From assembly GCA_947313885.1 (NCBI GenBank), contig CAMZNU010000025.1, positions 1-64,000 of the forward strand: a stretch of DNA of 64,000 bases. The letters are read 5' to 3'. This DNA comes from an uncultured Clostridia bacterium. Lineage in GTDB: Bacteria; Bacillota; Clostridia; Lachnospirales; CAMZNU01. The notes under the pieces are model-generated. The model was not told where the DNA came from, made no database searches, and worked only from the letters and a program-made list of their open reading frames with translations. The translations under genes and the position numbers were made by a program. Positions 47,974-55,349 of the stretch are shown piece after piece (the stretch's first letter is position 1; each line of letters begins with the position of its first letter).

Positions 47974-48615
47974 ATGAAAATTTTAATAACAGGGTTTGAT
48001 TCATTTGGTGGAGAAAAAATGAACCCATCTTACGAAAGTGTAAAAAAATTGCCAGATAAAATTTTAGGTTGGGAGGTAGTAAAAATAGAAATACCAACAG
48101 TTATAAACAAAAGCATGGATAAAATTGTTAATAACATAAAAAAAATAAAACCAGATGTAGTAATATGTGTAGGGCAAGCAGGAGGAAGAAGTTGTATAAC
48201 GCCAGAAAAAATAGCGATAAATATAAATGATTTTGCTATAGAAGATAATGAAGGGAATAAAGTAGTTGGTGAAAAAATACAACAAGAAGGCGACGACGGA
48301 TATTTTAGTACGTTACCAGTAAATAAAATAGTAGAAGATTTAAGAAAGAAAGGTATACCAAGTGATATATCATATACAGCGGGAACATTTGTATGTAATG
48401 ATGTTTTTTATAACTTGATGTATTATGTAAAAAAGAATAAACTAAATATAAGATGTGGATTTATTCATATACCTTTTGTATTTGAGCAAGTAGTGGATAA
48501 AAAAAATACATCGGCAATGACGTTAGAAATGATTACAAAAGGGTTAGATAATGTAATAAGAACTGTAATACAAAATGAAACGGATACAAAAAGTAATTTA
48601 GGAACTATATGTTGA
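47974..48615 (+). CDS. pcp: Pyrrolidone-carboxylate peptidase
   Basis: Removes N-terminal pyroglutamate from peptides. 213 residues, starting K-I-L-I-T-G-F-D-S-F-G-G-E. The catalytic triad is visible: Glu in the G-Q-A-G-G-R-S-C-I-T-P-E-K region, Cys in A-G-T-F-V-C-N-D-V-F-Y, and His in C-G-F-I-H-I-P. It ends in TGA followed directly by an in-frame TAA. It lies 25 bp before the selenoprotein gene, so the two are probably co-transcribed. Confidence 0.96.
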   Translation: MKILITGFDSFGGEKMNPSYESVKKLPDKILGWEVVKIEIPTVINKSMDKIVNNIKKIKPDVVICVGQAGGRSCITPEKIAININDFAIEDNEGNKVVGEKIQQEGDDGYFSTLPVNKIVEDLRKKGIPSDISYTAGTFVCNDVFYNLMYYVKKNKLNIRCGFIHIPFVFEQVVDKKNTSAMTLEMITKGLDNVIRTVIQNETDTKSNLGTIC

Positions 48616-48640
48616 TAAGAAAGAAAAAGAAGGAGGAGTT

Positions 48641-49147
48641 ATGCAAAAGATAGAAGATTTTACATTACCAAATCAAAATGACGAACTAATAAATTTAAAA
48701 AGTATGTTGAGTAAAAAAAGAGTGTTAATAATAATGTATAGAGGTAGTTTTTGAGGTGCTTGAGGGAAACAAATTTCACAGGTCTGTGAAAACTATGAAG
48801 AAATAAAAAAATATAATACAGAAATAATATGCATTAGCGGTGATGATGATGTAAAAAAAGCAAAAGAATTTAAAGAAAAAAATAAAATACCTTTTGATGT
48901 GTTATATGATAAAAATTTAGACGTTGTAAAACGATTAAATTTTTTAGATATGTCACATAGAGAGGGAAGAACATTCAAAAAATTTGGAGATATATCGTTA
49001 TCGGGATATATTTATGTAATGAAAGATAGTTATGTAGCATTTGAAACAAAAGGAATATATAATACAAGACCGTCGATAGAAAATTTAATGAGTATGATAG
49101 AAGGAACGACAAAAGCGTTACCACTTAATAGAGATAATTTCATATAA
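48641..49147 (+). CDS. Peroxiredoxin-like selenoprotein with a U-G-A-U (UxxU) redox motif
   Basis: Read through two UGA codons, this is a 168-residue thioredoxin-fold AhpC/TSA (PRX-like) protein: E-D-F-T-L-P-N near the start, then M-Y-R-G-S-F, UGA (48752-48754), Gly-Ala, UGA (48761-48763), G-K-Q-I-S-Q-V, and further on I-C-I-S-G-D and I-P-F-D-V-L-Y-D. Relatives read Y-R-G-S-W-C-P-Y-C-x-x-Q-L, so each UGA sits exactly on a Cys of the CxxC. The frame is otherwise intact, with AGGAGG before 48641 and TAA at the end. A SECIS-like hairpin follows the second UGA. UGA is a stop in glmU, tilS and pcp, so genome-wide reassignment is unlikely. The protein probably reduces peroxides or disulfides through a diselenide centre. 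Conventional callers would report only the last 82 codons from 48899. Confidence 0.88.
48752..48791 (+). promoter_or_regulatory. Bacterial SECIS-like element inside the selenoprotein gene
   Basis: TTTCACA (48774-48780), loop GGTC (48781-48784) and TGTGAAA (48785-48791) form a perfect 7-bp hairpin. The loop begins 17 nt after the second UGA and 26 nt after the first. In E. coli fdhF the SelB-binding hairpin also has a GGUC-containing apical loop at a similar distance from the UGA. The bulged U of the E. coli hairpin is not seen here. One hairpin may serve both UGAs. Confidence 0.75.
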
Positions 49148-49193
49148 AAAAACAACCCAACCATTCATTAACGAACGGTTGGGTTGTTTTTTT
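49147..49193. terminator. Bidirectional terminator between selenoprotein gene and ptsI
   Basis: AAAAAACAACCCAACC and its complement form the stem, extended by TTC/GAA after an A-C mismatch, with A/T runs on both strands. Confidence 0.92.
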
Positions 49194-51636: not shown

Positions 51637-53076
51637 TTAAAAATTAAATTTGAATAATTGGTCAAATTTAGAAAGTAGGGTAAAATTCCCCGTAACTTTA
51701 ACTTGACCTGTCATAAAGGCACGCTGTGTAGATAAAGTACCTTTTAAAATTCTTTCCCAAACTGTGGAGTTTCCAGAAATGGTAACACCAGAGTTATTAG
51801 AAACACCATTAAAGTATGTGCAGTCATTATTATCAATATTTAAATAGCAATCAAAATTTTCATCACCAAAAACATTTAATTGAAAGTTAGTAGTTATCCC
51901 GTTAGCTACAGCTGGTTTTAGATGATGAGCTAAACTTTGGATCTTTTGATTGATTGTAGTTGCACGCGGAATAACCTCGTCAGGGGACATAGGTGATAAC
52001 GGTTCGTTAATTACACTAGGATGACCTGTAAGAAAGTTGTTTAAAGAGTCGGAATATTCCGTATTTAGATTATTGTCAATGTTATTAGGTAGTTCATCAG
52101 ATAGTATATTATCTAAAAATGCTTTATCAGAATCTGTTTCTAAATAATTATTGTTGTAAATATTATTATTGTCAAAATTACGTTGTTGCTGAGGTTGTTG
52201 TTGAGGTTGTTGTTGTGGCTTAGGTTTAGGGATAGTTTTTTTAATCAAAGTATCGTTGTCAACATAAGGGTTTTTAATAAATCTTGTAGAAATATTTTCA
52301 CCAGACTTAGGAATATTTTTATTAGTCTTAGGAATATTTTTATTAGCTGTAGAAATATTTTTATTAGCTGTAGGAATATTTTTATTAGCTGTAGGAATAT
52401 TTTTATTAGCTGTAGGAATATTTTTATTAGCTGTAGGAATATTTTTATTAGCTGTAGGAATACTTCTATCCGAAATTAAGTTATTAGGAGTGTTAGAAGT
52501 ATTAGTTATAACGTTAGACATTGAATGTTGAGCTGTTGTATTTGTAAAAAAACTCCTGTTTTGTCGGAGGTATCGATAAAAGTCTTCAATGTATTTTTCA
52601 AGTAATAATTTATTACTTGAAGTTGTAGTTATAGAAGTTGCAACACTGTGATTAATACCAAAACTAATAGAATCAAATCCTCCTAAATGTTGGACAATAT
52701 CCGATAAATAGTTAAGGCTATTTTTTTCGCCTACCTTGTCAGAGATAGTTAAAAGAAAACAGTTTTTATCTCTAAGGGAATTTTCATAAATTGGTAAAGA
52801 AAAATAATCTATAAAATTTTTCATAATAGCGGATGGCATAAGCATATGTGTTGTGCAAATAAGCAAAACACCGTCACTACTAGCAATACTGTTCATAATA
52901 GAAGTGACATTTATATTAGGTGAGGGAGAATTTAAAAAAGGGATTTCAAACGTGCTTAGATCAAATTTTTCTAACGTAACATCTAGTTCCGAAAAAGTAT
53001 TATATATAATTTCCGATAAGCTAAGAGCGTTGTAATTTATATAGTTAGTACAACCATATATAACAGTTACTTTCAT
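51637..53076 (-). CDS. Flavodoxin-fold / SCP2 fusion protein with heptad tandem repeats
   Basis: 479 residues in three parts. Residues 1-170 look like an NADPH-dependent FMN reductase or flavodoxin-like domain (V-I-Y-G-C-T-N, then L-L-I-C-T-T-H-M-L-M-P-S-A-I-M-K). Residues about 200-340 are low complexity, with seven-residue repeats of the I-P-T-A-N-K-N type and Gln/Pro runs. Residues about 380-479 resemble an SCP2 sterol/lipid-carrier domain (N-F-Q-L-N-V-F, A-F-M-T-G-Q-V-K-V-T-G-N-F-T). Such fusions exist in Firmicutes, but the role is unknown. It lies 20 bp upstream of crr on the same strand and may be first in the PTS operon. AAGGAGG precedes the start. Confidence 0.8.
   Translation of the reverse strand: MKVTVIYGCTNYINYNALSLSEIIYNTFSELDVTLEKFDLSTFEIPFLNSPSPNINVTSIMNSIASSDGVLLICTTHMLMPSAIMKNFIDYFSLPIYENSLRDKNCFLLTISDKVGEKNSLNYLSDIVQHLGGFDSISFGINHSVATSITTTSSNKLLLEKYIEDFYRYLRQNRSFFTNTTAQHSMSNVITNTSNTPNNLISDRSIPTANKNIPTANKNIPTANKNIPTANKNIPTANKNISTANKNIPKTNKNIPKSGENISTRFIKNPYVDNDTLIKKTIPKPKPQQQPQQQPQQQRNFDNNNIYNNNYLETDSDKAFLDNILSDELPNNIDNNLNTEYSDSLNNFLTGHPSVINEPLSPMSPDEVIPRATTINQKIQSLAHHLKPAVANGITTNFQLNVFGDENFDCYLNIDNNDCTYFNGVSNNSGVTISGNSTVWERILKGTLSTQRAFMTGQVKVTGNFTLLSKFDQLFKFNF
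52300..52466 (-). repeat. 21-bp tandem repeat inside the flavodoxin-SCP2 gene
   Basis: About eight units, the central ones nearly identical, encode I-P-T-A-N-K-N with variants I-S-T-A, I-P-K-T and I-P-K-S at one end. The in-frame period makes length variation between strains likely. Confidence 0.9.
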
Positions 53077-53315: not shown

Positions 53316-55349
53316 GTGAAAAAAATATTAACAAAAATATTAATATGTGTACTAGTTTTAAGTAATTCGGGAAGTAACACAGTTAAAGCGGAAGAATGGG
53401 ACATAGATAGTTGGGAAGACAATTATTTAGAAGATTACTACGATTATGAATTAAAAATAGATAGCTATAATAAATACGTATTAGAAAAAGTAAAAGATAA
53501 ATTATTAAATTCATATTTTAGGGTAACGGATACAAAAGAAGTAACGGAAATAGTATACAAAGAAGAAGAGTTAAATAATAAAATAATAAATAGTAATAAA
53601 GTTGTGTTAGCAAAAGCAAGTACAAATAAAAATACGACATATTACATTCCAATAAATAGTATTACAAAAGCTAATGAAGAAAATGCCTCGTTTGTAATAA
53701 ACTATGAGGATATAGAAATATTGTTATCAAATAAATTTTTAGATGTAACGAAAAATCAAGAAATAATCAATGCAAAAAGACAGATGAAAAATAATAGACT
53801 AAATGATTTGTACGTAAGGATAGTAATATACCCGAATAAAATAAACTTTCGAATAAGAAATGAACAACCAATAACGGATGTTATAGAACTAGATGTTGAT
53901 ATATTTGGATTCAATAATGAAATAAAAATATTTGATAGTGAAATGGAAGACTATTTACAAAGAAAAGTAAATACAATAGAAAGTATAGGTGATAGTGATA
54001 ACTTTGATGCGGCCGAAAGTGGAGATTTTGAAAGTTATATAGAAACTGTATTAGAGAAAAACATTTGGGAAACAAGAGATGAACTATATGATGAGTTATT
54101 AACGAGTATAGAATTAATAGTATATGACGAAAAAACAGGGAAAGAGTTAGAAAAGGAAATAGATAAAGTAATAAATAATGCTATAAATAAACATATGAAA
54201 AAATTAAAAAATGCAATAACTAAAGAAATATCAGAAGGGCTAAAAGTGCTAGATGGTAAAGGTAAAGATGTAAAAAGTGAAATATATAGAGTTGTGGATA
54301 GTGCAATAGATAGATTAAAAGTAACATTAAAAAATGAAATGTATAAAGAAGTATTAAAAGATATAAGACAAATAGACGATACAGATGATGCACGTGATTA
54401 TTATACAAACAAAACGTTAAAAAACTATTTAAATAGAAAGCTTGATAAAAATTTTACGTACTTAGAACAAGAGATATACGATAAAATGTTTTACGATACA
54501 ACTTTGTATGACTATATAGATGACATAAAGGATATGAGTTTATTGAAAAATAGCACGTTATATGTGCAAAGTAGATTAAATACTATAGCTGACAACATAG
54601 CAAAAGAGTATATGAAAGAAGTAAGTGAACAGTTTAGAAGAGAATTACGAGATAATAAATATTATATACCTGTTATGAATTTTGATGCACCTGTATTAGT
54701 AAGTAAATGGAATATGGAAAATACTATGAATATAAATGCATACGAAATGTTAAAAACGAGTTGGAGCAAATTGAAAAGCGATTTAGTTACGAATAAAATA
54801 TATGTATTTATAAATAGACCTATGTTATTTGTATTTACAAAAGAGGATGTAAGATATAATAATTTTGAAAATATGAGTAACGATGAAAGAAATGAAACAA
54901 TGTTGAAATATAATTTGTACGATGAGTTTAAAGTATTTGGAATAGTTGAAGGAAACAAGTTATTAACAAAAAATGAATTAACGAAAGGTATAGGTAGTAT
55001 TTTAGGATATGAAGGCAATAATGTAGCTAGTTCGTTAAGAAATATAGGCATAAAAGTACCAATAGGAAATACGAATGAATATATATATGCAACCCAAAGT
55101 GATTTGGTTAAAATGGTAATGGGTATATATGAATTAAAAACAGGAACTGCGATAAAATCATATCAAATTAAAAATTTTAATGAAGTAAAACAATTAAAAA
55201 ATGTTAAAAAAAATGTACTAAAAGAATATGAAGTAGCTGTAGAAATCGGCATTTTAAGTAAAGAAGATGTAGATGGAAATAAAGTAGTTACATTAAAAGA
55301 GTTTGTAAAAATAATATCAAACTTAGATAAAAAAGTAGGTGGCTTTTAA
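53316..55349 (+). CDS. Secreted hypothetical protein, possibly with degenerate SLH-like end
   Basis: 677 residues with a GTG start; AGAGGGGG lies upstream. The signal peptide M-K-K-I-L-T-K-I-L ends near V-K-A-E. The mature part is acidic and Lys/Asp/Asn-rich, with a long helical, probably coiled-coil middle (about 225-440). The last 120 residues (E-F-K-V-F-G-I-V-E-G-N-K-L-L-T-K-N-E-L... V-V-T-L-K-E-F-V-K-I-I-S-N-L-D) look like diverged SLH repeats, so surface attachment is inferred. No family recognised. The next gene overlaps its stop by one base. Confidence 0.75.
   Translation: MKKILTKILICVLVLSNSGSNTVKAEEWDIDSWEDNYLEDYYDYELKIDSYNKYVLEKVKDKLLNSYFRVTDTKEVTEIVYKEEELNNKIINSNKVVLAKASTNKNTTYYIPINSITKANEENASFVINYEDIEILLSNKFLDVTKNQEIINAKRQMKNNRLNDLYVRIVIYPNKINFRIRNEQPITDVIELDVDIFGFNNEIKIFDSEMEDYLQRKVNTIESIGDSDNFDAAESGDFESYIETVLEKNIWETRDELYDELLTSIELIVYDEKTGKELEKEIDKVINNAINKHMKKLKNAITKEISEGLKVLDGKGKDVKSEIYRVVDSAIDRLKVTLKNEMYKEVLKDIRQIDDTDDARDYYTNKTLKNYLNRKLDKNFTYLEQEIYDKMFYDTTLYDYIDDIKDMSLLKNSTLYVQSRLNTIADNIAKEYMKEVSEQFRRELRDNKYYIPVMNFDAPVLVSKWNMENTMNINAYEMLKTSWSKLKSDLVTNKIYVFINRPMLFVFTKEDVRYNNFENMSNDERNETMLKYNLYDEFKVFGIVEGNKLLTKNELTKGIGSILGYEGNNVASSLRNIGIKVPIGNTNEYIYATQSDLVKMVMGIYELKTGTAIKSYQIKNFNEVKQLKNVKKNVLKEYEVAVEIGILSKEDVDGNKVVTLKEFVKIISNLDKKVGGF

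Follow-up and report, generated by a model that had tools for sequence, protein, structure and literature searches.

Described selenoproteins with a Sec pair

Few natural cases are known of bacterial proteins that carry two selenocysteine (Sec, U) residues within one redox motif. The UxxU arrangement has already been tabulated for the peroxiredoxin (Prx)-like prokaryotic selenoproteins of the PF00578 family (PMC13188914, PMC9312934), and it is also found in Prx-like 2 proteins from ocean metagenomes (PMC2398784). In eukaryotic SelL, one SECIS inserts two Sec that are two residues apart (PMC3316567). The published limits for the bacterial element (bSECIS) are a loop of 3-9 nt, a stem of 4-16 bp, a G within the first two loop positions, a spacing of 16-37 nt and a free energy of at most -7.5 kcal/mol (PMC13188914).

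The gene that is the subject of this analysis lies in a window of 64,000 nt (that is, the whole stretch of DNA that was analysed) from an uncultured Clostridia bacterium. It can be placed in a broad class from the literature, "Prx-like thiol:disulfide oxidoreductase, PF00578, UxxC/UxxU". Since UxxU has already been tabulated in that class and found in ocean metagenomes, the gene is rated a divergent member of an established class: it is a divergent further example of an arrangement already published for its kind of protein. The sequence-only reading had presented UxxU as rare and the gene as notable; the example is genuine and divergent, but it is less unprecedented than was supposed.

The gene and its reading frame

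The features of the locus are collected in Table 1. Frame, coordinates, ribosome site, the two TGAs and the TAA are all as originally described, as sequence and translation confirm, and besides the two TGAs the 168-codon frame contains no stop before its TAA. With TGA read as Sec, the motif region is YRGSF-U-GA-U-GKQ and the whole product is MQKIEDFTLPNQNDELINLKSMLSKKRVLIIMYRGSF-U-GA-U-GKQISQVCENYEEIKKYNTEIICISGDDDVKKAKEFKEKNKIPFDVLYDKNLDVVKRLNFLDMSHREGRTFKKFGDISLSGYIYVMKDSYVAFETKGIYNTRPSIENLMSMIEGTTKALPLNRDNFI-TAA. Its match to Pfam AhpC-TSA (PF00578; 69.9 bits, cut-off 26) covers residues 2-103 and spans both UGAs; the match to Pfam Redoxin scores 51.2 bits. Runs of at least 168 codons free of TAA and TAG turned up in 3 of 20 Markov-simulated 64-kb sequences, and the chance of two TGAs hitting exactly both redox positions among 168 is about 7e-5; chance is a poor explanation of the two-TGA gene. 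The upstream gene, pcp, and the Prx-like gene are likely to share one transcript.

Table 1. Features of the Prx-like selenoprotein locus (positions in the window)
Feature	Position	Strand	Evidence and remarks
pcp, pyroglutamyl peptidase, upstream gene	47974..48615	+	PF01470, 232 bits; TGA end 25 nt before the Prx-like start codon
Shine-Dalgarno AAGGAGG	48630..48636	+	direct reading; four bases upstream of ATG
Prx-like selenoprotein gene, UxxU, 168 aa	48641..49147	+	translation with TGA as U; Pfam AhpC-TSA and Redoxin matches
UGA1, predicted Sec38	48752..48754	+	17 relatives have Sec here and the CxxC relatives Cys; 26 nt upstream of the SECIS loop
UGA2, predicted Sec41	48761..48763	+	the CxxC relatives and almost every UxxC relative have Cys here, as does PrxQ (its peroxidatic Cys); 17 nt upstream of the loop
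bSECIS hairpin UUUCACA-GGUC-UGUGAAA, loop 48781-48784	48774..48791	+	7-bp stem; fold -5.8 kcal/mol
TAA stop of the Prx-like gene	49145-49147	+	
Bidirectional terminator hairpin between the Prx-like gene and convergent ptsI	49146..49193	.	17-bp outer stem, -26.3 kcal/mol, z -7.2

What becomes of such a gene in ordinary annotation? The table 11 list of open reading frames (at least 60 aa) yields an 82-aa fragment with a GTG start (48899-49147) from the second half and nothing from the first, so that an ordinary gene caller would miss the half that carries the redox motif. The earlier statement that standard calling misses half of the gene is thereby borne out, the fragment being all that is kept; this is a gene that routine annotation truncates.

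Relatives

Across about 1,200 genomes of the order, class and phylum (a partial sampling), no UxxU relative was found. Searched by tblastn with the UxxU protein, 391 genomes of the class gave no match reaching E 1e-12. The matches that were read from 392 genomes of the order are PrxQ-like, at about 30% identity, and none among the matches listed bears a TGA; in 399 genomes of the phylum there is one TGA-containing match, 36% identical, whose motif is FNRGFI-U-PF-C-RK. Single-sequence scans of viral and genome contigs and tblastn of plasmids produced no close relative, and a scan of viral contigs with a PrxQ alignment produced no match. Searching the phylum and class samples with NF040769 (SelL-related) brought in 17 full UGA-bearing relatives (16 UxxC, one UxxG), together with a CxxC set. 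(A side observation: two loci, in genomes G993 and G1122, each hold two SelL-related selenoprotein genes in tandem, and every copy has a UGA and a hairpin of its own; one copy has UxxG in place of UxxC.)

In the alignment, U38 stands opposite Sec or Cys in the relatives and U41 opposite Cys (Gly in one); PrxQ has Thr and the peroxidatic Cys, the TxxC motif, at the corresponding positions. The proposal that the UGAs sit on the redox cysteines survives this comparison, the homologs being UxxC or CxxC there. Because no UxxU relative was found, UGA2 is supported by position, spacing and genome context, not by a conserved UGA.

The hairpin is a shared feature of the UGA-bearing relatives: all 17 have one, with the loop 25 nt past the UGA. 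Their stems (15 distinct sequences) pair in 89 of 90 cells in register versus 15-59 when slid, and they show compensating changes, for example from U-A to C-G. (A technical note: for the SECIS sequences a hairpin-only alignment was used; MAFFT misaligned the full-length ones.) The loop in the window begins at the same CAG (Gln) codon as the relatives' loops, so that the hairpin holds their position relative to UGA1; its loop exceeds theirs by two bases when the final A-U pair is taken as part of the loop.

The SECIS hairpin and the predicted decoding of two UGAs

GGTC occurs 97 times in the window, counting both strands, and only the site at 48774-48791 is enclosed by a stem of at least 6 bp. 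The genome's own selD gene has a comparable hairpin, CCAGCU-GGUC-AGUUGG (6 bp, loop 18 nt past the UGA), and that of E. coli fdhF is GCAGGUCUGC, with similar spacing; CAGGUCUG is common to E. coli fdhF (checked in 5,388 genomes). A covariance model composed of these three hairpins was run over the full genome, with E values up to 10 accepted, and it matches only the Prx-like and selD hairpins, whose scores are not independent, both having been members of the model. No third hairpin was thus detected at that threshold. Within the range that the model covers this absence carries information, and it hints at a very small host selenoproteome as far as hairpins of the modelled type are concerned. 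No SECIS family of Rfam matched the examined stretches; weak miRNA matches in one of them (L002) fall on the terminator.

The GGUC loop, the 7-bp stem and the spacings to both UGAs lie within the published limits for loop, stem and spacing. The free energies of the Prx-like hairpin (-5.8 kcal/mol) and of the genome's selD hairpin (-6.4 kcal/mol) both fall short of the published -7.5, in an AT-rich genome and with the stretch to be folded not fixed.

The loop starts 17 nt past UGA2 and 26 nt past UGA1. Each distance agrees within one base with a distance found in other genes, the first with that of selD and the second with that of the relatives, and one hairpin can accordingly serve both UGAs. 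As these other genes insert a single Sec each, the analogy makes it plausible that two Sec insertions are driven by one hairpin. Since the SECIS is rightly spaced from both UGAs, a double sequencing error is very unlikely to be their origin.

It is conceivable that only one UGA is usually decoded as Sec, be it UGA2 with its selD-like spacing or UGA1 with the spacing of the relatives, and that the other mostly terminates translation or is read through poorly, leaving the full-length protein scarce. The two UGAs do lie at different distances from the only hairpin, and in the sampled genomes no UxxU relative was found to back the pair. Yet the frame downstream is intact and its C-terminal part is homologous to other proteins, which argues that selection has kept the full-length product, and each spacing approximates one known from other genes and falls inside the published range; decoding of one UGA alone is accordingly judged improbable. 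That both are read as Sec is, from the sequence, held with high confidence. Can one bacterial SECIS drive two successive Sec insertions, and what does a diselenide add over UxxC or CxxC? The gene is a clean natural test of both questions.

Sec machinery and genome context

The genome (1.55 Mb in 49 contigs, 95.8% complete, AT-rich) belongs to what is probably a spore-former. The sequence-only reading had pointed to selA, selB, selC and selD as the genes to look for, and all four are present in the same genome. Searches identify selA (519 bits), selB (334 bits, covering 1-574 of 581) and selD (359 bits), the last of which contains a single in-frame TGA, and there is a tRNA-Sec (selC) with a UCA anticodon; the four lie together in about 6 kb of one contig (C9). 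The selD gene (L020:1477-2511, on that contig) reads MDFCGG-U-ASK and is consequently a selenoprotein gene itself. It is followed by yedF (192 bits, cut-off 110); upstream of it, on the opposite strand, is a cysteine desulfurase/Sec-lyase-like gene.

The open frame, and nothing more, would suit a lineage in which UGA specifies an ordinary amino acid, Trp or Gly. The probability of this is close to nil: TGG is used 91 times in the 44 long open reading frames of the window, three of which end in TGA; tRNA-Sec(UCA) and SelB exist; and both positions stand opposite Cys or Sec, never Trp. Genes terminated by TGA, such as pcp, refute this reassignment in practice.

A pseudogene, or errors of assembly, with the TGAs as true stops, was considered and rejected. 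The sampled relatives yielded no close orthologue, and with it no comparison of conserved frame, but a good ribosome site precedes 168 codons free of TAA, TAG or frameshift, the TGAs fall exactly on the redox pair, the SECIS is placed for both and the Sec machinery is complete. What likelihood is left to such decay or error is minimal, and decoding of both UGAs as Sec is the preferred reading in what follows.

Only two proteins of the genome exceed the Pfam cut-off for AhpC-TSA: the Prx-like UxxU protein and a CcdA-linked TlpA-like CxxC protein. As the sole AhpC-TSA protein beside the TlpA-like one, the UxxU protein may do the job that PrxQ does elsewhere. (On another contig, C2, CcdA, a TlpA/ResA-like CxxC protein and a cytochrome bd subunit I-like gene are grouped; the grouping suggests some oxygen exposure of the host.)

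Family placement

How close is the protein to the families that it resembles? With the Prx-like PF00578 selenoproteins it shares the domain (scoring above the domain cut-off), Sec at the first redox position, a motif, UGAU, of the UxxU form listed for them, and a bSECIS just downstream. It differs in being only 28-37% identical to any sequence compared, in having YRGSF ahead of the motif rather than NRGF or RHLG, and in its hairpin loop, GGUC instead of AGUU.

The Prx-like fold, UxxU as in SelL, and the use by SelL of one SECIS for two Sec are points of likeness to eukaryotic SelL and the NF040769 proteins; the SECIS in the window, however, is of the bacterial type and within the coding region, in contrast to the 3'-UTR location in eukaryotic SelL, and in the NF040769 matches that were found the motif is UxxC or CxxC, with a single case of UxxG. 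Against NF040769 itself the protein scores 32.3 bits, below the cut-off of 120.

The likeness to PrxQ/BCP extends to the core fold and to the location of U41 opposite the peroxidatic Cys, and the score against PRK09437 (57 bits) is below its cut-off of 140. At the positions of PxxxTxxC, the resolving Cys (five residues further along) and VR(S/T)T, one finds R34 and U38, no Cys at 46, and S/G for the arginine: Sec38 replaces the T of TxxC, and the proline, the resolving Cys and the arginine are absent. Since the product lacks both the P-T-C motif and the arginine of PrxQ, "peroxiredoxin" overstates the function, and "Prx-like thiol/diselenide oxidoreductase" is the better name, as predicted from its sequence. 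Of the original designation, "peroxiredoxin-like" with SelL as precedent, the Prx-like PF00578 domain stands; the classical motif is missing, and with a score far below the cut-off the protein is no member of the SelL-related family.

In the tree the nearest neighbour is a CxxC protein with the motif FYRGAWCPYC (support 90/72); the grouping is uncertain, both being long branches. Proteins of this type (L058, G1103), which we take to resemble CDD cd02970, share with the window protein the YRG ahead of the pair, the position of the pair and a similar C-terminal YxxR segment; they differ in having Cys for Sec and a longer insert after the core.

Proposed mechanism

The genome's SelB and tRNA-Sec would decode both UGAs under the direction of the single stem-loop just downstream, generating a Sec38-x-x-Sec41 redox pair in what is predicted to be a cytoplasmic, thioredoxin-fold, Prx-like oxidoreductase. 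U38 would stand where thioredoxin-like CxxC/UxxC proteins have their N-terminal attacking residue, and U41 where PrxQ has its peroxidatic Cys. (A single-sequence AlphaFold model is poor, with a pLDDT of 49.) The favoured prediction is that the protein alternates between a form with two selenols and one with a diselenide, a thiol/diselenide oxidoreductase being preferred because the proline of PxxxTxxC, the resolving Cys and the arginine of VR(S/T)T are not present; a peroxide substrate is possible. The oxidised form would probably be an intramolecular diselenide, formed directly or by way of a selenenic acid, and it would be reduced by the cellular thioredoxin system; the substrate may be a peroxide or an oxidised thiol or disulfide.

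UGA2, the closer of the two to the hairpin and spaced nearly as in selD, is probably a former Cys codon. One can tentatively go further and imagine a near-minimal selenoproteome, in which the whole Sec machinery is kept mainly for SelD and the UxxU protein, one hairpin specifies two Sec nine nucleotides apart, and UGA2 was gained beside an ancestral UxxC; this larger scheme is a good deal more doubtful than the decoding itself.

Other features of the window

Two further genes downstream deserve mention. A 677-aa protein with a GTG start and a signal-like N-terminus is encoded at 53316-55349 (+) and has no match in Pfam or NCBIfam. On the opposite strand, 51637-53076 (-) encodes a protein with an FMN reductase domain at its N-terminus and an SCP2-like domain at its C-terminus, joined by a low-complexity linker that includes a 21-bp repeat array (52285-52469, about 9 copies) encoding IPTANKN.
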